Positions 52,268 to 63,986 of a stretch of DNA of 64,000 bases are shown piece after piece; positions within the stretch are counted from its first letter, which is position 1; every line of letters begins with the position of its first letter. Source of the stretch: Radicibacter daui (GTDB taxonomy: Bacteria; Pseudomonadota; Alphaproteobacteria; Radicibacterales; Radicibacteraceae); contig CP131057.1 of the NCBI GenBank assembly GCA_030657355.1, positions 269,501 to 333,500 of the forward strand, in the 5' to 3' direction. The notes under the pieces are model-generated. The model was not told where the DNA came from. It did not search any database and worked only from the letters and a program-made list of their open reading frames with translations. Both the position numbers and the translations under genes were made by a program.

Positions 52268-53590
52268 CTAACCGGCGGCACGCACCGTGCGGCGGCCGAG
52301 GCTGTAATAGTCGAAGCCGGCTTCGGCCATCTCGTCCAGCGCATAGACGTTACGCAGATCGACCATCACCGGACGTTTGAGCAGGCGCTTGACCTCGGCA
52401 AGGTCGAGCGCGCGGAACTCGTTCCACTCGGTGAGGATGGCGACGACATCAGCCCCGTCGAGCGTGGCGTAGGTGCCATCCATCCAGTCGATGTTGGTCA
52501 AGAGCTTGCCGGCCTCATGCATGCCGGCCGGATCATAGGCGCGCACGCGGGCGCCTCGGCGCTGCAGCTCGGGAATGATGTCGAGGCTGGGGCTGTCGCG
52601 CATGTCGTCGGTGTTGGGCTTGAAGGTGACGCCAAGGATTGCGACCGTCTTGCCTTCCACATCGCCGCCGCAGGCATCGACAATGCGGTCGGTCATGGCG
52701 AGCTTGCGCGCGTCATTGACGGCAATGACCGTCTCGACGATGCGGGTTGGCGCGCCGCTGTCATGGGCGGTGCGGGCGAGCGCCTTGGTATCCTTGGGGA
52801 AACACGAGCCGCCATAACCCGGGCCGGGATGCAGGAACTTGGCGCCGATACGGCCATCAAGGCCGATGCCGCGCGCCACATCCTGCACGTCCGCGCCTAC
52901 CTTCTCGCACAGATCGGCGATCTCGTTGATGAAGGTGATCTTGGTGGCGAGGAAGGCGTTGCCGGCATATTTGATGACTTCCGCCGTCTCCAGCGTAGTC
53001 AGGATCAGCGGCTTTTCACGCAGGGCAAGCGGGCGATAGAGCGTCTTCAGAACCTGAGCCGCGCGGTCGCCATTGGTGCCGACGACGATGCGGTCCGGCC
53101 GCATGAAGTCCTCGATGGCGGAGCCTTCGCGCAGGAATTCCGGGTTGGAGGCAACGTCGAAATCGGCGTCCGGGCGGCGGGTGCGCACGATGCGCTCGAT
53201 CTCGCGGCCGGTGCCGACCGGCACGGTGGATTTGGTGACGATGACGCTGTAGCCGGTCAGCGAGTCAGCGATCTCGCCGGCAGCGGCATAGACATAGCTG
53301 AGATCGGCATGGCCGTCGCCGCGGCGGCTCGGCGTGCCGACGGCGATGAAGATGGCGTCGGCACCATCAACAGCCTCGGAAAGGCTGGTGGTGAAGCTGA
53401 GGCGGCCGGCAGCAACATTCTTGGCCACCAGCTGGTCGAGCCCCGGCTCATAGATCGGAATACGTCCGTCCTTGAGCGCGGCAATCTTGCTCTCGTCCTT
53501 GTCGACGCAGATGACGTTCCAGCCGAACTCCGAAAAGCAGGTGCCCGAAACCAGACCGACATAACCGGTGCCGATCATCGCGATACGCAT
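52268..53590 (-). CDS. ugd: UDP-glucose 6-dehydrogenase
   Basis: The 440-residue protein has the N-terminal NAD motif MRIAMIGTGYVGLVSG and the catalytic cysteine in GPGYGGSCFPKDTKAL. It oxidises UDP-glucose twice to UDP-glucuronate, a precursor of acidic exopolysaccharide. GGGAG precedes ATG 53590 by eight bases. It belongs by function to the polysaccharide cluster from here to the end of the window, although transcribed opposite to the Wzy group. ATGTTGTGAT occurs 20 bp upstream of its start. Confidence 0.93.
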   Translation of the reverse strand: MRIAMIGTGYVGLVSGTCFSEFGWNVICVDKDESKIAALKDGRIPIYEPGLDQLVAKNVAAGRLSFTTSLSEAVDGADAIFIAVGTPSRRGDGHADLSYVYAAAGEIADSLTGYSVIVTKSTVPVGTGREIERIVRTRRPDADFDVASNPEFLREGSAIEDFMRPDRIVVGTNGDRAAQVLKTLYRPLALREKPLILTTLETAEVIKYAGNAFLATKITFINEIADLCEKVGADVQDVARGIGLDGRIGAKFLHPGPGYGGSCFPKDTKALARTAHDSGAPTRIVETVIAVNDARKLAMTDRIVDACGGDVEGKTVAILGVTFKPNTDDMRDSPSLDIIPELQRRGARVRAYDPAGMHEAGKLLTNIDWMDGTYATLDGADVVAILTEWNEFRALDLAEVKRLLKRPVMVDLRNVYALDEMAEAGFDYYSLGRRTVRAAG

Positions 53591-53610
53591 CGCGGCGTCT
53601 CCCGTTCCCA

Positions 53611-53620
53611 ATCACAACAT
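53611..53620 (-). promoter_or_regulatory. GTTGTGAT motif upstream of the UDP-glucose dehydrogenase gene
   Basis: On the minus strand ATGTTGTGAT lies 20 bp before the start. It recurs at 62494-62503, and GTTGTGAT also occurs at 56140-56147 and 56167-56174. Confidence 0.5.
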
Positions 53621-56083: not shown

Positions 56084-56097
56084 GTGACATGGATCAA
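56084..56097 (-). promoter_or_regulatory. FNR/FixK-like box upstream of the P1B-5 ATPase gene
   Basis: GTGAC-N4-ATCAA (56084-56097) on the plus strand; the minus strand reads TTGAT-N4-GTCAC, one perfect half of TTGAT-N4-ATCAA and a 3/5 second half. It lies about 84 bp before the start, suggesting oxygen or iron control. Confidence 0.4.
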
Positions 56098-56180: not shown

Positions 56181-57536
56181 ATGAGCGAAGCCATCTCATT
56201 TGCCGGCAGCGGCCCTGATCGAGACCAGATACCCGTTGTCGCAACGGGCGTCAGCAATATCGATATGCCTGCTTTCGCCGCGTTTTTTGCGCTGAGTGCC
56301 GTCTTTTATCTCGGCATCTATACGCTGGAAGCGCCGGTTCGCTACGGCCTTTACCTCGTGGGCAAGGACAGCCTGATCCTGCTGCGCGACGGGTTGATGT
56401 TCGGCCCGCTTGTCGTCCTCGCTCTGGTTCAGCTGACAACAACGAGACTGCATCCGGCCTTTCTGGCGGCAGGCGTTCTGATGACCTTTCACGGCCTGGT
56501 GCTGGTCGGAACCCAGGGCAGCCTCATGGGGGCCGCCTATGGCGCCAAGATCCTCATGAATGTGCTGTTCGGCTTCTTTGCCGCCGGCCTGCTGATCGCG
56601 CCGCGTGGGTGGGTGCTGAAAGCCTTTGTGGTTTTCTGGGTGCTGATCCTGATCGGCGCGCTGCTCGACAAGTTCGTCATGACGTTCCCCTGGACGGGCA
56701 TGGCGACGGTTGTCGGCGATCTTAGCGTCGACGTGTCCAAGGACTGGCAGATCTCCGATCCGTTTGCGCGCCGTGTGGCCGGTTTTACCCGTAGCTCCAT
56801 TGCCGTCGCTGCCGTGCTGCCGTGCCTCAGCATCGTTCTGATGTGCCGCTTGAAGAATGTCTGGGCCCGTGCGGCCATCGCCCTGCCGGCCCTGGCGGGT
56901 GTGTTTCTCAGCACGCAGAAAGGCTCGCTTATCGCCTTTTTGCCCATCGCCGCCATCCTGTGCCTTCCGGCTGCCCTGCGCCTTGCCTGGCTGCGTATCT
57001 GCTTCGTGGCCTTTCTGGTGCTGGCCGCCGGCCTGCCGCTCTTCACCCACGGGCTCAGTCTCGACCATGGCAGGGGGGTGTTCAGCATGGAATCCCTCTA
57101 TCTGCGCATCGTCTACACCTGGCCCGACGCCTGGGCCTGGATCGAGCATCACCAGATGATGTGGTTTGGCGTCGGTCTGGGCGGCATCGGCGGTCCGCAG
57201 CGCCTCTATGCGCCGGACCAGTTCAATCCGACCGACAATATCGCCCTGCTGCTCTACGCCTATTTTGGCCTGTTCGCGCTTCTCTACCTCGCTTTTATCG
57301 TCCGGCTGGCGCTTCGCCCCGCGACCGGAGACCTGCCGCGGGTAGAAGCTGCACTCGCCATCCTCGCCTTCGCTTTCGGCTACGGCATCGTGCTGTCTCT
57401 GATCGAAGACCAGTCCGCCTCCCTTTTCCTCGGAGCGGCCCTGGGGACCTTGTGGCTTGAGACTGCCCCGCGCGGTTCAGTTTCCGGGCCGGCTCATGGC
57501 GTCCCCTTCGCCTACCAGAATGGAGAGTTTCGATGA
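56181..57536 (+). CDS. O-antigen ligase/Wzy-like polysaccharide polymerase
   Basis: The 451-residue protein has about 10-12 membrane helices and the O-antigen ligase/polymerase pattern with a large loop (FTHGLSLDHGRGVFSMESLYLRIVYTWPD) and WFGVGLGGIGG. It would polymerise lipid-linked repeat units in the outer leaflet of the inner membrane, with the Wzx flippase at 62598. The start is at ATG 56181; ribosome site is weak. Its stop overlaps the phosphoribosyltransferase start by four bases. Confidence 0.8.
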   Translation: MSEAISFAGSGPDRDQIPVVATGVSNIDMPAFAAFFALSAVFYLGIYTLEAPVRYGLYLVGKDSLILLRDGLMFGPLVVLALVQLTTTRLHPAFLAAGVLMTFHGLVLVGTQGSLMGAAYGAKILMNVLFGFFAAGLLIAPRGWVLKAFVVFWVLILIGALLDKFVMTFPWTGMATVVGDLSVDVSKDWQISDPFARRVAGFTRSSIAVAAVLPCLSIVLMCRLKNVWARAAIALPALAGVFLSTQKGSLIAFLPIAAILCLPAALRLAWLRICFVAFLVLAAGLPLFTHGLSLDHGRGVFSMESLYLRIVYTWPDAWAWIEHHQMMWFGVGLGGIGGPQRLYAPDQFNPTDNIALLLYAYFGLFALLYLAFIVRLALRPATGDLPRVEAALAILAFAFGYGIVLSLIEDQSASLFLGAALGTLWLETAPRGSVSGPAHGVPFAYQNGEFR

Positions 57537-58153
57537 ACCAGACCTTGCGGATACCCCGGCCGTCCGGGGTGCTCAGCCTCGACCGGGACGGCTTTGACGG
57601 GGCCTGCGCGTCACTCATGGAACGCGCCCTGGAGGAGGGTACCCCTGACGCCCTGATCGGTATTCGTACCGGCGGTCTTTATGTGGCGGAGGCGATGGCC
57701 CGCTCCCAGCAGGGCCGGATACCGGTGCTGTCGATAACCTGCCGACGGGCAACGAGCTCCTACAAGCCTGGTGCCGGAATGCTGAAGTCGCTGGTCAGCA
57801 GCTTGCCGCGCCCTGTCGTCGACAAGCTGCGCGTCTGGGAACATGCGATGCTCACCAGCCGGCCCCGACCGGCGCCGTCCGGCGAGTACCGGTTCGATGC
57901 GGAAGAGCTGGCGCAGCTTGACCGCTGTCTCTCCGAAGCCGGGCCTTCGCCGTCGCTGCTGATCGTCGATGATGCGGTCGACACCGGCGCCACGCTTTAC
58001 CGGGTTAAGGAAGCGGTGCTCGACAGGGCGCCGTCCTCGGCCCGCATCCGCTCGGCGGTGATTACCGTCACGACGTCCGATCCCATGGCCGCGCCCGATC
58101 TTGCTCTCTATCACGGCCAGCTTTGCCGTTTCCCGTGGTCGCTCGATGCATAG
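57533..58153 (+). CDS. Type I phosphoribosyltransferase-like protein in a polysaccharide operon
   Basis: The 206-residue protein has the PRPP-binding motif LLIVDDAVDTGATL, preceded by a strand-loop LIGIRTGGLYVAEAMARS typical of type I PRTases. The hood region is unlike adenine, orotate or hypoxanthine enzymes I know. The gene overlaps the polymerase stop (ATGA) and the HAD phosphatase start (ATGCATAG), so all three are translated together. A role in making a phosphoribosyl or ribofuranosyl precursor for the polysaccharide is inference. It could also be a regulator of nucleotide supply. Confidence 0.75.
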   Translation: MNQTLRIPRPSGVLSLDRDGFDGACASLMERALEEGTPDALIGIRTGGLYVAEAMARSQQGRIPVLSITCRRATSSYKPGAGMLKSLVSSLPRPVVDKLRVWEHAMLTSRPRPAPSGEYRFDAEELAQLDRCLSEAGPSPSLLIVDDAVDTGATLYRVKEAVLDRAPSSARIRSAVITVTTSDPMAAPDLALYHGQLCRFPWSLDA

Positions 58154-58829
58154 GGTATTGGTCTTCGACCTCGATGGCACGGTGCTCAGCGTCAACAGCT
58201 TTCCCTTGTGGGCGATGCATCTGCTGCGCGCACGTTTTGCACATCTCGGGCTGGTGCAGCGCCTCGGAGTGAGCCTGCGTGCCGGTGGGGTGCTTGCCGC
58301 CCGCAAGGCAAGGCTGATCGGCCACGAAGCGTTCAAATGGCGCCTGCAGCAGCTCTGGCAGCAGGCCGTAGCAGGTGATGGTGGCGTTGCCGAACGCGCT
58401 TTTGCGCAGCACCTCGTCTCCTATGTCCGGCCGGAACTGACGGGTGTGCTCAAGGCGGTCAGCGAGGGCCGGGTCGATGCCGTCCTGGCAACGGCCGCGG
58501 CTGGCGATTATGCGCAGGCGCTGGGGCAGGCTCTCGGCTTTCGCCATGTTCTGGCGACGCCCCGGGACCGGTCGGCCAGCACGCCGAGCACTGTCGGGGT
58601 GCACAAGCGCGATGCCGTGCTGGCTTTCCTTGCCGAACGTGGCTGGCAGGGCCGGCCCATCACCTTCTTTACCGACCATGAAGATGACCTGCCGCTGATC
58701 CGCATCAGCCACATGGTCTACTGGTTCGGGGAAAGTCGCCGGAGCGCTGCCCTGAACGGCTGCACCGCCGAAATCGTTCAACCTCATGACCTGCGGGAAT
58801 TTTCCCTGATGCCCGTTGCGGCGCAGTGA
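58146..58829 (+). CDS. HAD-superfamily phosphatase
   Basis: The 227-residue protein has HAD motif I in VFDLDGTVLS, motif II Thr in LATAAAGDY, motif III Lys in VHKRDAVL and motif IV in FTDHEDDLPLI. The large helical cap (about 20-115) places it among HAD-IB (SerB-like) phosphatases. The start lies eight bases inside the upstream phosphoribosyltransferase gene. It would remove a phosphate from a sugar or nucleotide-linked intermediate; in this operon perhaps the product of the PRTase. Substrate unknown. Confidence 0.8.
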   Translation: MHRVLVFDLDGTVLSVNSFPLWAMHLLRARFAHLGLVQRLGVSLRAGGVLAARKARLIGHEAFKWRLQQLWQQAVAGDGGVAERAFAQHLVSYVRPELTGVLKAVSEGRVDAVLATAAAGDYAQALGQALGFRHVLATPRDRSASTPSTVGVHKRDAVLAFLAERGWQGRPITFFTDHEDDLPLIRISHMVYWFGESRRSAALNGCTAEIVQPHDLREFSLMPVAAQ

Positions 58830-58850
58830 ACCCTTAACCTGGAGAACGCC

Positions 58851-59831
58851 ATGCCGATCAACATGTTCGATACCGCTATCGACAGCGATAATCTGGGTGA
58901 TCATTTCATCATGGATGCAGTGTGGGAGGCGGTGCGCCCACTTTTCCCGGAAGAAGAATTTATCCGCACTCCGACCCACCGCCGCGCGACCCTTGCGGAG
59001 CTGCGCGAGGGGCGCAAGGCACCGCTTTCCTTTGTGGGCGGTACCAACATTCTGAAATCGCACATGCTGGTGCGCGGTAACTGGCGGATCACGCCGCTTG
59101 ATTACTTCAACTGGCGTGACGTCGTGCTTGTCGGCGTCGGCTGGCAGCAATATGGCCGCTCCGGCCCCGATGCCGCGACGCGGCTCTTCTTCCGCCGGGT
59201 GCTGTCTAAGAAATGGCTGCACTCCGTGCGCGACATGCACACCTTCGAGCATCTGCGTCCCCATGTGCCGAACGTTCTCTACACCGCCTGTCCGACCATG
59301 TGGATGCTGGATGATGCGCATTGCCGGAGCATTCCGGTGCGCAAGGCGCAGGATGTCGTCTTCGCCGTGACCTATTACCGTCCGGCGCCGGAAGAAGATC
59401 GCAAGGTCTTTGAAATGCTGAAGCGCCACTACCGCACGGTCTATGTCTGGCCGCAGCAGGAAGAAGATTTGCCTTATCTCGACGAGATCGGGGTTTCCGG
59501 CTACGTGCCGATTGCCCCCGACGTGGCGACCTATGACCGGCTGCTGGCGAGCGAGGATGTGGATTTTGTCGGGGCAAGGCTGCATGGCGGCATCCGTGCG
59601 CTTCAGCATCGCCGCCGGGCACTCATCATCCCCGTCGACAACCGTGCGACCGAAATCAGCGTTTCGACTGCACTGCCTGTTGCTTCCCGCTCAGAGCCAG
59701 AGGTTATCGAGCGTTGGATCACGCAGCCGGGCCCGATGAACCTTACCTTGCCGGTGGAAGCGATCGAGCGCTGGAAGGGTCAGTTCCGGCACCTGGCTGC
59801 GGCGCCGTTCGCGGCGGCTGCTTCCTTCTGA
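58851..59831 (+). CDS. Polysaccharide pyruvyl transferase family protein
   Basis: The 326-residue protein has the PS_pyruv_trans signature: DNLGDHFIMDAVWEAV at the start, SFVGGTNILKS, and the C-terminal GARLHGGIRALQHRRRALIIPVDNRATE. These enzymes add ketal pyruvate to sugars using phosphoenolpyruvate, giving acidic polysaccharide. It follows the HAD gene by 21 bp on the same strand. Some family members act on other acceptors, so exact use is inferred from context. Confidence 0.85.
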   Translation: MPINMFDTAIDSDNLGDHFIMDAVWEAVRPLFPEEEFIRTPTHRRATLAELREGRKAPLSFVGGTNILKSHMLVRGNWRITPLDYFNWRDVVLVGVGWQQYGRSGPDAATRLFFRRVLSKKWLHSVRDMHTFEHLRPHVPNVLYTACPTMWMLDDAHCRSIPVRKAQDVVFAVTYYRPAPEEDRKVFEMLKRHYRTVYVWPQQEEDLPYLDEIGVSGYVPIAPDVATYDRLLASEDVDFVGARLHGGIRALQHRRRALIIPVDNRATEISVSTALPVASRSEPEVIERWITQPGPMNLTLPVEAIERWKGQFRHLAAAPFAAAASF

Positions 59832-59847: not shown

Positions 59848-59883
59848 AAAAAACCCCCGCTCCATATGGAGCGGGGGTTTTTT
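59848..59883. terminator. Bidirectional terminator
   Basis: A perfect 18-bp palindrome pairs AAAAAACCCCCGCTCCAT (59848-59865) with its complement (59866-59883), which ends in six Ts. It lies between convergent genes. Confidence 0.95.
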
Positions 59884-59913
59884 TGTACCGAGGCCTGGCC
59901 GATAAGGCTGCCG

Positions 59914-62232
59914 TCAGGCGTTCACCGGTATCGCCGCACTGCCCGGATCAATCCGGTCGGGCCGGATGGCGGCCTGATAGATGCGCATGAGGTCGGCTAC
60001 ATGCCGCTCACCGCTGCGGCTGTCGGACCAGAAGGCCTGGTACGCGGCGTCGCCGGCGGCAGCAATCAGGACATCATCCTCGATCATTGCCAGGCAGCGT
60101 GCCAGATCGTCGGCGTCACCGCTTCGGAAGCGCCAACCGGTAATACCTTCCTCAATGCGCTCGGCAGCGGCGGAGATGTCGCTGACGATGGCAGGCACGC
60201 CGCAGGCCGCCGCCTCGCTGACCGTCAGCCCGAAAGCCTCGTACCAGAGGCTGGGGAAAACCAGGCAGCGGGCGCGGCTCAACTGGGCGCGAATTTCCGA
60301 CATGCCGACCCAGCCGGTGACCGTCATGCCCGGGATCTGTTCGATCTCGGCGCGCAGGGGGCCGTCGCCCACGAAGGTAACGCCAAGGCCCATACGTTCG
60401 GCCACCTGAGCCAGCAGCCTCACACCCTTTTCCTCGTCCAGCCGGCCGAGGCAGAGGATGGTGCGGTTGCTTGCCACCGGTGCCGGCGCAACACGCGGCA
60501 TGTCGATGGGGTTTGGCAGCCGATGCAGGCGGGCACGCCGCGGCAGGAACGGGGAGAGGATGGTCGCGGACCGTTCCGAAAGGGCGATATAGTGCTCGAC
60601 GGAGGCGGGGAAGCGGCCGGCCATGAGCTGGATGAGGCCGCGGGTGACCCGGAACAGCTTGTGGACATGAGCCCGCTTGTCGCAGCGGGTGGCAATGCAG
60701 CCCACTGAAAGCGGGCGCAGGGCGCAAGGTTCGGCCTTGCGGTAGTTGAAGAAAGCGCCGTTGGGGCAGGCGGCATAAAAGTCATGCAGGGTGCAGATCA
60801 CCGGCATGCCGAGCCGCCGAGCCGCGAGGACCGGGCTGGTCGTCAGGGCCTTGGTGTAGCCGTGCAGATGCACGATGACATTGTCCGCCGGCAAGGGGCG
60901 CAGGATCTCCGCCACACGCCGTGCTGCCTTGAAGTTCCACAGTCCCTGCAACGCTGCACCGGGGTGGCGGCCGACATCGAGCAGCTGATGCTGATCGAGG
61001 CAATGGACGGTGAGGGGCGCGGTGCGCAGCTCCTCGCACACCGGCCCCACGGCGCCGACAAAAATGACCTCGACGCCGGAATGCGCCAGCCGGACCGCCT
61101 CGTCGATGGCGACTTTGCTGGCGCCGCCCTGCACGTGGCAAAAATCATTGAGCATGACCACGGTAAAGGGCCGGGTGGTGGCTGGCTTTGCCGCTGGCAA
61201 CGGGCTGGCCGCATGTCGTCTCGGCCGAAGACGGCGGATGAGGTCGCGGCCGAGAGCGATGCCCGGCGCCTCCACGGTGCGTTCGACAACGAAGGCCATG
61301 GCGACCACCAGCGCGATAATCGCTCCGAGCCCGATCAGGTCCGGCCGATAGAGGCCGAGCAGCAGGGAAAGCTGGATAGTGGGCGAATGCAGCAGATAGA
61401 CGCCATAGGAGATGTCGGTCGTCATGCGCAGCCGGGGCGTCTTCAGCGCCAGCGTCACGACAAGCGCGGCCACGAGAACCGGATAGAGAACCGGCGGGCG
61501 GGAGTGCAGGAGGGCCGTGATTACGGCCAGCAGGCCGATGCTGAGCACAAGGCCGACAAGCCGGTTTTCAAACCGCAGGAAATGGCGCCAGCGATAGGCG
61601 GCAATGCCAAGCACGAAGAACTGCAACTGGCCGGGAAGCTGCTTGCCGAGGGTAAGATAGCCCATCCCGTCCATGACCTGCCGGTAGAGGATCGACAGTG
61701 CGAAGATGGCGGCCAGCACCGGCCATCCCCAGCGTTCGGTGAGGCGCCAGATCAGCGGGACGATCAGATAGAAAGCAAATTCGATCTTCAGCGTCCACAA
61801 GGCGGCGTTGAGGCTGGGGTCAACCAGTGCCGTCAGCACCCCGCTGCCGATATCGTGCTGCAGGAAGTTGGCGAAGACGGCGTTGGCCAGCAGATAGGTG
61901 CCCATCGAGCCGATATTGCCCGGGATGCCGCCGGGGGCCATCGCGCCCAGGGTAATGGTCTGGACGATGACGACGGCAATGTAGAGCGGGTAGATGCGGA
62001 ACAGGCGCTTGATGAAGAAGCGCAGCAGGTCGGGATCGCGGTCGAAACTGTTGGTGACCAGATAGCCGCTGACAACGAAGAAACATTCAACCGCCAGCGC
62101 CGCATAATTATAGGGCCAGGGCGGAGATTCTATGCCGACGAACGCCTTGAAGTGGCCGAGGACCACCAGCAGGGCAAGTCCCAGACGAAGAGGGGTGAAG
62201 TTGTTATCGGCAAAGCCTTTTTCGTGGCTCAT
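59914..62232 (-). CDS. Fusion of OafA-type acyltransferase and GT4 glycosyltransferase
   Basis: The 772-residue protein combines two enzymes in one frame. Residues about 10-340 form the acyltransferase-3 membrane domain with the catalytic His27 (VLGHFKAF), RLFRIYPLYIAV and EFAFYLIVP. Residues about 355-770 form a GT-B glycosyltransferase of family GT4, with the N-terminal QGGASKVAIDEAVRLA, a cysteine-rich insert (PCALRPLSVGCIATRC) and the EX7E motif EAFGLTVSE. The start at ATG 62232 follows GAGGAGG by five bases; a longer reading adds 55 residues of no sense. It would both transfer a sugar and O-acylate the growing repeat or lipid. Confidence 0.88.
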   Translation of the reverse strand: MSHEKGFADNNFTPLRLGLALLVVLGHFKAFVGIESPPWPYNYAALAVECFFVVSGYLVTNSFDRDPDLLRFFIKRLFRIYPLYIAVVIVQTITLGAMAPGGIPGNIGSMGTYLLANAVFANFLQHDIGSGVLTALVDPSLNAALWTLKIEFAFYLIVPLIWRLTERWGWPVLAAIFALSILYRQVMDGMGYLTLGKQLPGQLQFFVLGIAAYRWRHFLRFENRLVGLVLSIGLLAVITALLHSRPPVLYPVLVAALVVTLALKTPRLRMTTDISYGVYLLHSPTIQLSLLLGLYRPDLIGLGAIIALVVAMAFVVERTVEAPGIALGRDLIRRLRPRRHAASPLPAAKPATTRPFTVVMLNDFCHVQGGASKVAIDEAVRLAHSGVEVIFVGAVGPVCEELRTAPLTVHCLDQHQLLDVGRHPGAALQGLWNFKAARRVAEILRPLPADNVIVHLHGYTKALTTSPVLAARRLGMPVICTLHDFYAACPNGAFFNYRKAEPCALRPLSVGCIATRCDKRAHVHKLFRVTRGLIQLMAGRFPASVEHYIALSERSATILSPFLPRRARLHRLPNPIDMPRVAPAPVASNRTILCLGRLDEEKGVRLLAQVAERMGLGVTFVGDGPLRAEIEQIPGMTVTGWVGMSEIRAQLSRARCLVFPSLWYEAFGLTVSEAAACGVPAIVSDISAAAERIEEGITGWRFRSGDADDLARCLAMIEDDVLIAAAGDAAYQAFWSDSRSGERHVADLMRIYQAAIRPDRIDPGSAAIPVNA

Positions 62233-62375
62233 CAAAACCTCCTCGCACGGCTCATGCCGGGGTGGAACGGCTGGCGCACCGGCAAAGGGCGCATCATGGA
62301 AACCGGATCGGTCCGGGAGTATCCCGGCTGCCTGCCAGGCAATCGCGGCCAGTAGCCTTTGCTCAACCGACAAAA

Positions 62376-62395
62376 GCCGCAGTGGCTCCTGCGGC
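62376..62395. other. Small hairpin in the divergent region
   Basis: GCCGCAG (62376-62382) and CTGCGGC (62389-62395) pair around six bases. No other gene is visible in 62233-62597. Confidence 0.3.
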
Positions 62396-62492
62396 AAATG
62401 CCGGAAAATCGGATGTGCCCATAAGCCAGTAATCGTGCGGATGAATTAAGGGCTGATTTCTCATCGAAATCTTTAGGGCAGAGGGCGTGGAC

Positions 62493-62514: not shown

Positions 62515-62597
62515 CCGCCGAATTTCACGGTTCGCGATGATCTCCAGGGTGTTATGGCGTCGTTACACCAACAGGAGATGACCCGACGGGGATGATG

Positions 62598-63986
62598 ATG
62601 CGGGAAGATGTGTCCGTGATTGAACCGGCCCTTGGGCGATGGCGGCGACTGGTATCGCCGCGCGAGCAGACGCGGCGGCTGAAGGGCCTTCTGGAAGCGC
62701 GGCCGTTCCTGCGCAATGTCTCCATCATGCTGAGCGGGTCAGCCGGCGGCCAGATGGTCAGTATCCTGCTGTCGCCGCTACTGACCCGGCTTTATACGCC
62801 CCAGCAATTCGGCATCCTGAGCGTCTATTCGGCGCTGCTGACCATTCTCGTCGTCATCGCCTCGCTGCGTTACGAACTGGCGCTGCCGCTGGCGCGTACG
62901 GATCGTGATGCACTCAATCTGGTGGGTGTTTGCGGTGGGGTGTTGCTGGTGACCACCGCGGCCATCGGGCTCGTCGCCTTTCTGGTGCCCACACCCGTCG
63001 TGCAGGCATTGTGGACCACGCCGCCGGAAAGCAGTGAGCTCCTGATCTATCGCGGCCTGCTCGTGCTCGGTTATTTCTGCCTTGGCGGTTATTACATCGC
63101 GCTGCAGCTGGCGACCCGCGCCAGCGCTTTTCCGGCGATCGCCAAAACACGCCTTGCCCAGGGCGTGGTAGGGCCGATCGGGCAGATCGGCCTTGCCCTG
63201 CTGGGTGCCGGTACGCCCGGCCTGCTGATCGGCAATATTCTCGGCCAGTCCGCCGGAACTTTCGGCCTTTTCGGCTGCGTCATCACCCGGCTGCGAAGCT
63301 TGCTGGAGGCGCTTTCCTGGCGCCGCATGATCGTGCTGGCGCGGCGTTATGTGCGTTTTCCGCTCATCAGCAGCTGGGCGGCGCTGATCGATGCGGCCGG
63401 CAGCAGCCAGCTGCTCTATCTGCTTGCCGCCGTCGCCTATTCACCGCATGTCGCCGGCTTTATCTTCCTTGTCGAGCGGGTGGTGTCGCGGCCGCTCAAC
63501 ATCGTCGGCACCTCCATCCTGCAGGTCTATATCGGCGAGGCAGGACGCATCGTTGCCAGCGATCCCGCCGCTCTCAAGCGGCGTTTCCGCCAGGTCGTCT
63601 CCCGCCAGTTCATGATGGCCGTTGCCTGGGTGCTGGTTGCCAACATTGCCGGCTCGCTGCTCTTCGCCACCGTGTTCGGCCAGCAGTGGGAGGAGGGCAT
63701 CTTCTACCTGCGTGCGCTCAGCATTGGTTATCTGGCCCAGGCCGTGGTGCAGCCGGTTTTCCACACCCTCCAGATCCTCGAAAAACAGGGGCTGGCGGCT
63801 GGCTGGCAGATCGGGCGGCTGGTGCTGACGGTGACGGTCTTCATGGCCGGCACCCGCCTCGGGCTGGAACCCTGGTGGGGCATCGCCGGTTATAGCGCGG
63901 CGCAGGCCCTTTGCTGCCTCGTGCTGATCCTCATCATGGTGCGGGCCATCGATGCGCGCCGCAAACAGAAGGAGATGGCGCCATGA
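62598..63986 (+). CDS. Polysaccharide flippase (Wzx / MATE-like)
   Basis: The 462-residue protein has twelve membrane helices and the polysaccharide biosynthesis-export fold, with LLSPLLTRLYTPQQFGILSVYSALLTIL near the start. It flips lipid-linked repeat units across the inner membrane for the Wzy-like polymerase. Three ATGs (62592, 62595, 62598) follow each other; 62598 has GGGGA five bases upstream and is preferred. The stop overlaps the next gene's ATG by four bases. Confidence 0.82.
   Translation: MREDVSVIEPALGRWRRLVSPREQTRRLKGLLEARPFLRNVSIMLSGSAGGQMVSILLSPLLTRLYTPQQFGILSVYSALLTILVVIASLRYELALPLARTDRDALNLVGVCGGVLLVTTAAIGLVAFLVPTPVVQALWTTPPESSELLIYRGLLVLGYFCLGGYYIALQLATRASAFPAIAKTRLAQGVVGPIGQIGLALLGAGTPGLLIGNILGQSAGTFGLFGCVITRLRSLLEALSWRRMIVLARRYVRFPLISSWAALIDAAGSSQLLYLLAAVAYSPHVAGFIFLVERVVSRPLNIVGTSILQVYIGEAGRIVASDPAALKRRFRQVVSRQFMMAVAWVLVANIAGSLLFATVFGQQWEEGIFYLRALSIGYLAQAVVQPVFHTLQILEKQGLAAGWQIGRLVLTVTVFMAGTRLGLEPWWGIAGYSAAQALCCLVLILIMVRAIDARRKQKEMAP

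Follow-up and report, generated by a model that had tools for sequence, protein, structure and literature searches.

A phosphoribosyltransferase–HAD phosphatase gene pair in a Radicibacter daui exopolysaccharide cluster and its proposed role in glycan ribosylation

INTRODUCTION

Ribofuranose enters bacterial polysaccharides by an established route, in which a phosphoribosyltransferase (PRT or PRTase) dependent on phosphoribosyl pyrophosphate (PRPP) is followed by a HAD phosphatase (PMC11127046, PMC10299916, PMC12096443). In these precedents, ribose-5-phosphate goes from PRPP straight onto the glycan, and the phosphate is then removed. The route is represented by the gPRT/PRP dual-domain ribofuranosyltransferases of Klebsiella O-antigens (PMC11127046, PMC11231755), by CriT and CrpP of Bcs3 in Haemophilus influenzae type b (PMC10299916), and by Cj1432, a single protein containing a family 4 glycosyltransferase (GT4), a HAD and a PRT (PMC12096443); KrkA is another precedent for PRPP-dependent glycan ribosylation (PMC12887879). 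Here, we analyze a 64,000-nt stretch of the Radicibacter daui genome (contig CP131057.1, positions 269,501 to 333,500; the window), in which genes for a class I PRTase and a HAD phosphatase lie between those for a Wzy-like polymerase and a polysaccharide pyruvyltransferase.

From the sequence analysis, we propose with a probability of roughly three in four that the PRTase transfers PRPP-derived ribose-5-phosphate to a lipid-linked glycan and that the HAD phosphatase dephosphorylates the product, leaving ribofuranose in a Wzx/Wzy exopolysaccharide. The original prediction for this locus held that a PRTase and a HAD phosphatase are odd partners of a polymerase and match no described system; the established route contradicts this view of the pair. 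The four-gene set itself was not found described in our literature searches, which also returned nothing on ribose in Bacteroides lipooligosaccharide.

RESULTS

A PRTase–HAD pair within a four-gene operon

The four open reading frames (ORFs), checked against the sequence of the window, all lie on the + strand at the positions that the original prediction gave them:

56181–57536, +: Wzy-like polysaccharide polymerase, 451 amino acids (homologues in alignment A7, about nine hydrophobic segments)
57533–58153, +: class I PRTase, 206 amino acids, proposed PRPP-dependent glycan ribosyltransferase (PF00156, AlphaFold, Foldseek, conserved residues)
58146–58829, +: HAD-IB phosphatase, 227 amino acids, proposed phosphoribosyl-glycan 5′-phosphatase (PF12710, AlphaFold, catalytic residues)
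58851–59831, +: polysaccharide pyruvyltransferase, 326 amino acids (PF04230, homologues at the equivalent place)

These coordinates agree with the predicted operon of slightly overlapping genes and a short gap. The polymerase and PRTase genes share 4 bp (ATGA, 57533–57536), the ATG at 58146, most likely the HAD start codon, lies inside the PRTase gene (stop codon 58151–58153; 8-bp overlap), and 21 bp separate the HAD stop at 58829 from the pyruvyltransferase ATG at 58851. The PRTase, HAD and pyruvyltransferase match their Pfam families with E-values of 7.8e-11, 4.6e-15 and 4.7e-17, respectively. The window polymerase has no Pfam match and about nine membrane segments by hydropathy; three of the nine proteins in alignment A7, all of them homologues, match Wzy_C (PF04932, best 4.9e-8). 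Pyruvyltransferase homologues stand at the same place in two related loci, L008 and L009, and are 79% and 69% identical.

The PRTase and HAD genes are near-obligate neighbors

An alignment search of named genomes yielded 80 PRTase loci. Adjacency was scored over 83 distinct loci, 81 of them testable, as two contigs stop after the PRTase. A HAD gene adjoins the PRTase gene in 79 of these 81 (Alphaproteobacteria, Bacteroidota and some others); among all 83, it lies on the same strand in 78, including one locus (L041) where a family 2 glycosyltransferase (GT2) gene sits between the two; in one more locus, the two genes are on opposite strands. Six further genomes of the Bacteroidales order, outside all models, have an adjoining HAD gene in five cases and an adjoining GT2 gene in three. 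The two proteins are a single ORF in L045, and in a Duncaniella metagenome-assembled genome (MAG) one ORF (L056, 9059–10606) joins an N-terminal GT2 to a C-terminal PRTase (E 6.6e-34 and 5e-8), its end overlapped by the HAD gene.

The company of the pair is mostly glycan-related. In Alphaproteobacteria, it usually lies amid polymerase, flippase, acyltransferase-GT4 and pyruvyltransferase genes, and outside this class the 41 flanking genes scanned include 22 GT2 and two GT4 genes. The 35 downstream partners scanned over all loci include seven pyruvyltransferases, three acyltransferases and two priming transferases, and also sugar epimerases. Adjacency and neighbors alike uphold the prediction that the PRTase and HAD phosphatase are linked to each other and to polymer synthesis.

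Other arrangements were also recorded. Rhodobacterales loci and an Opitutae MAG (L059, L071, L086, L041) have the pair followed or accompanied by a GT4, a protein of about 606 amino acids with a GT4 C-terminus and a protein of about 364 amino acids without a Pfam match. Five Flavobacteriaceae loci (L044, L061, L068, L088, L092) carry it at a fixed core-genome site, flanked by recR, often together with a GT2, on one side and by a 2-oxoacid dehydrogenase E2 gene on the other, with no capsule locus in view around the pair. The contigs of L045 and L047 are titled Clostridiales and Staphylococcus; their neighborhoods are Bacteroidales-like, and the labels may be wrong.

The conserved unit is the pair, not the four-gene set

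The order polymerase–PRTase–HAD–pyruvyltransferase recurs in seven other alphaproteobacterial loci (L008, L015, L016, L017, L018, L019 and L020; L008 and L019 are close relatives), with identities to the window of 54–68% for the polymerase and 53–59% for the PRTase, so chance adjacency of the four genes is rejected. Eight more loci (L009, L010, L012, L022, L023, L026, L029 and L031) hold a partial cluster, either rearranged or lacking a pyruvyltransferase or polymerase beside the PRTase–HAD pair. A tree of 58 PRTases places the carriers of the four-gene block in one supported group (11 rows, support 99/96) nested in an alphaproteobacterial group (97/91); the PRTases associated with GT2 are on the other side. 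Culturable carriers of the block include Niveispirillum and Telmatospirillum. The PRTase is rare: a class-wide search found it in six of 385 alphaproteobacterial genomes, counting the source genome, a prevalence of about 2% that is matched in the order of L056, and the four genomes checked have one copy each.

The conserved unit is the PRTase–HAD pair; the polymerase and pyruvyltransferase are lineage-specific partners. The original prediction, which treated the four genes as a unit, is correct in that the block is conserved, and its boundaries cut through a larger cluster.

The PRTase has a purine-PRTase fold without the purine-binding lysine

The AlphaFold model of the PRTase has a mean predicted local distance difference test score (pLDDT) of 91.3. 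Its closest solved folds among the best 50 Foldseek matches are the archaeal HGXPRTs of Sulfolobus (4z1o) and Pyrococcus (1vdm), with a TM-score by target of up to 0.76, then XGPRT and PyrR; profile search A3 (best 60 of 110 matches) gives the same nearest relatives. The archaeal HGXPRTs and bacterial XGPRT share with the window PRTase the fold, the PRPP motif (LLIVDDAVDTGAT, intact at residues 142–154) and a C-terminal FPW motif, here RFPWS-D. The vicinal DD of the PRPP motif is present in 58 of 58 PRTases, a count partly shaped by how homologues were found (see below). Unlike the purine enzymes, the window PRTase has a long helical insertion in which R72, P92, R100 and E103 are invariant, E103 being a candidate catalytic base, as well as a different genetic context and no purine-binding lysine. 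In HGPRT and XGPRT, this is the residue that binds the exocyclic oxygen of the purine. The archaeal PRTases and the XGPRT of this genome have the lysine at or next to the place that aligns with position 180, where 57 of the 58 sequences have T and one has S; depending on the method, the alignment moves by one residue, and no K is listed at 180 or 181.

These observations bear on the possibility that the PRTase acts on a nucleobase or an analogue and that the HAD phosphatase is a nucleotidase, so that the pair makes a nucleoside or salvages bases and its place in the operon reflects chance or regulation. The fold and profile relatives favor this reading, as does the angustmycin nucleoside, made by the PRT AgmE with the HAD phosphatase AgmB, which likewise dephosphorylates a phospho-sugar product (PMC8599513); AgmE, however, forms an N-glycosidic bond to adenine in a nucleoside antibiotic, with no glycan context. 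Against it stand the missing lysine, the conserved glycosyltransferase neighbors and the GT2 fusion. The NCBIfam salvage models also score far below their cut-offs (XGPRT 21.4 of 138 bits, HGPRT 18.9 of 150), and the genome carries a separate XGPRT, UPRT, PyrE (OPRT), PurF, ComF-like protein and Prs. We therefore reject ordinary purine salvage, which had been named as one finding that would overturn the prediction, and regard nucleobase chemistry in general as unlikely.

The HAD phosphatase retains its catalytic residues

The HAD model (pLDDT 94.2) is of the HAD-IB type with a helical C1 cap, and its nearest structure is 3fvv. All motifs are intact (DLDGT, TAA, K, TDHEDD), and all 50 HAD sequences keep both DxDxT aspartates, the lysine and the TD..D aspartates. 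The protein combines the HAD fold, catalytic Asp and helical cap that characterize the PRP/CrpP phosphatases; CrpP and the T. composti PRP are not among the 27 matches listed when HAD profile A4 was run on the PDB at E-values up to 10.

A proposed mechanism and its alternatives

The locus has two marks of a PRPP-dependent glycan ribofuranosyltransferase system, namely a PRT and a HAD encoded together and their association or fusion with glycan genes. A glycan ribosylation role is most likely here because of the PRTase–HAD pairing, the fusions and the glycan context. In the cytoplasm, the PRTase would move a 5-phosphoribosyl group from PRPP onto a sugar hydroxyl of an undecaprenyl-diphosphate-linked repeat unit, and the HAD phosphatase would strip the 5′-phosphate, leaving a ribofuranose residue, probably beta. 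The pyruvyltransferase would put a pyruvate ketal on what may be a sugar of the same repeat unit, which Wzx would flip and Wzy would then polymerize. PRPP as the ribose source, and ribose as a component of a pyruvylated polymer, as the original prediction had it, are the best reading.

The prediction had also supposed that the pair makes an activated ribose donor. This wording fits less well: the PRTase is soluble, without a membrane portion, and in the precedents the glycan itself receives the ribose-5-phosphate and is then dephosphorylated. A specific version is that the pair makes a polyprenyl-phosphate-ribose donor, like a UbiA-type PPPRS and its phosphatase, for use outside the cytoplasmic membrane. 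PRPP-to-lipid transfer followed by dephosphorylation has precedent, and one known PPPRS bears a HAD PRP domain; yet known PPPRS enzymes are UbiA-family membrane proteins, whereas the PRTase here is a soluble class I protein, and a GT-C transferase was not recognized among the annotated cluster genes, which makes this version improbable. It is less probable still that the pair ribosylates a small soluble sugar or cofactor, rather than a lipid-linked chain, for later use by a glycosyltransferase: both proteins are small and predicted to be soluble, and the Bacteroidota pairs often lie away from polysaccharide loci, but the GT2–PRTase fusion and the action of Bcs3, Cj1432 and KrkA on a growing chain speak for a glycan acceptor.

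Several observations count against glycan ribosylation as proposed. The PRTase lacks a HAD partner in two Muribaculaceae loci (L046, L050), the L056 and L045 fusions are one MAG sequence each, and three Rickettsiales-type MAGs (L011, L024, L030) have the pair beside a DUF1003 gene or beside response regulators, where no glycan genes are in view. The conservation of DD and RFPW is partly selected, because the homologue scan patterns ([QV]LCRFPWS and VDDA[VI]D) contained both motifs; the T180 and HAD observations are independent of these patterns. Finally, the modeled fold is of the purine-PRTase type, unlike the characterized glycan PRTs, and may leave room for a nucleobase-like or small acceptor.

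The surrounding exopolysaccharide cluster

The locus is a Wzx/Wzy exopolysaccharide cluster, and the four genes form its left end. Further features in the window are:

52268–53611, −: UDP-glucose/GDP-mannose dehydrogenase, a possible uronic acid supplier nearby
59848–59884, no strand: perfect palindrome flanked by A and T runs, read from the sequence
59914–62397, −: acyltransferase-3 and GT4 glycosyltransferase fusion of the same cluster (homologue in all four-gene-block loci)
62592–63986, +: Wzx-like flippase (PF13440; syntenic in most related loci)

A divergent neighboring ORF starts at 56090. The palindrome probably terminates transcription in both directions, from the operon and from the acyltransferase-GT4 gene that converges on it; a pattern scan found no promoters, and the same scan also missed this palindrome. 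Downstream, the order is acyltransferase-GT4, Wzx, a DUF3551 protein, a pectate-lyase-like protein, GT4, Wzz and a priming sugar transferase. The acyltransferase-3 and GT4, fused here, are separate genes in L010, and the pectate-lyase-like gene (PF12708, e.g. L013, 9899–11854) recurs in about 10 related exopolysaccharide clusters. PADLOC returned no match and a search of viral contigs found no homologues; an anti-phage defense role and a viral origin were rejected on these grounds.

DISCUSSION

Beyond the window, we lean towards a broader view in which PRTases with the RFPWS-D C-terminus and HAD and glycosyltransferase partners, found in Pseudomonadota and Bacteroidota, form a separate PRPP-dependent O-ribosyltransferase lineage, derived from purine PRTases and independent in origin from gPRT/CriT. 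They would ribosylate exopolysaccharides and, in gut and marine Bacteroidota whose genes lie outside polysaccharide loci, another glycan. If so, nucleotide-salvage folds gave rise more than once to PRPP-dependent transfer of sugar to glycans, a PRTase with RFPWS-D beside a HAD would be a sequence marker predicting ribofuranose in Rhodospirillales and Bacteroidota polysaccharides, and small two-gene enzymes would become available for making ribose-containing glycans. This view would also suggest that PF00156 'phosphoribosyltransferase' labels next to glycosyltransferases should not be taken to mean purine salvage.

The gPRT domain of the dual-domain ribofuranosyltransferases reportedly diverges from all earlier PRTs (Kelly et al. 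2022). Like the window pair, the gPRT/PRP enzymes are soluble, cytoplasmic and encoded in polysaccharide loci; they are one dual-domain protein, whereas two genes are present here and the PRT is a canonical class I enzyme near the purine PRTases. Bcs3 and the related Cj1432 and KrkA resemble the pair in combining a PRT-like fold with a helical-capped HAD, a fused or adjacent glycosyltransferase and PRPP as the donor, which for the window pair is proposed. In CriT of Bcs3, D680 and E818 in separate loops replace the vicinal DD that the window family retains, and Bcs3 serves an ABC-transporter capsule as opposed to a Wzx/Wzy cluster. The gPRT and CriT chains are absent among the PRTase matches listed (phmmer at E 10, 17 hits; A3, best 60 of 110; Foldseek, top 50), their presence in the searched PDB copy not being separately confirmed. 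We reject membership in the gPRT/CriT family, given the retained vicinal DD and the absence of such chains from the PDB matches listed by sequence and by fold. The chemistry, then, is already known; what differs is a PRTase with a canonical class I fold and vicinal DD, set apart from gPRT/CriT by their descriptions and by those listed matches.

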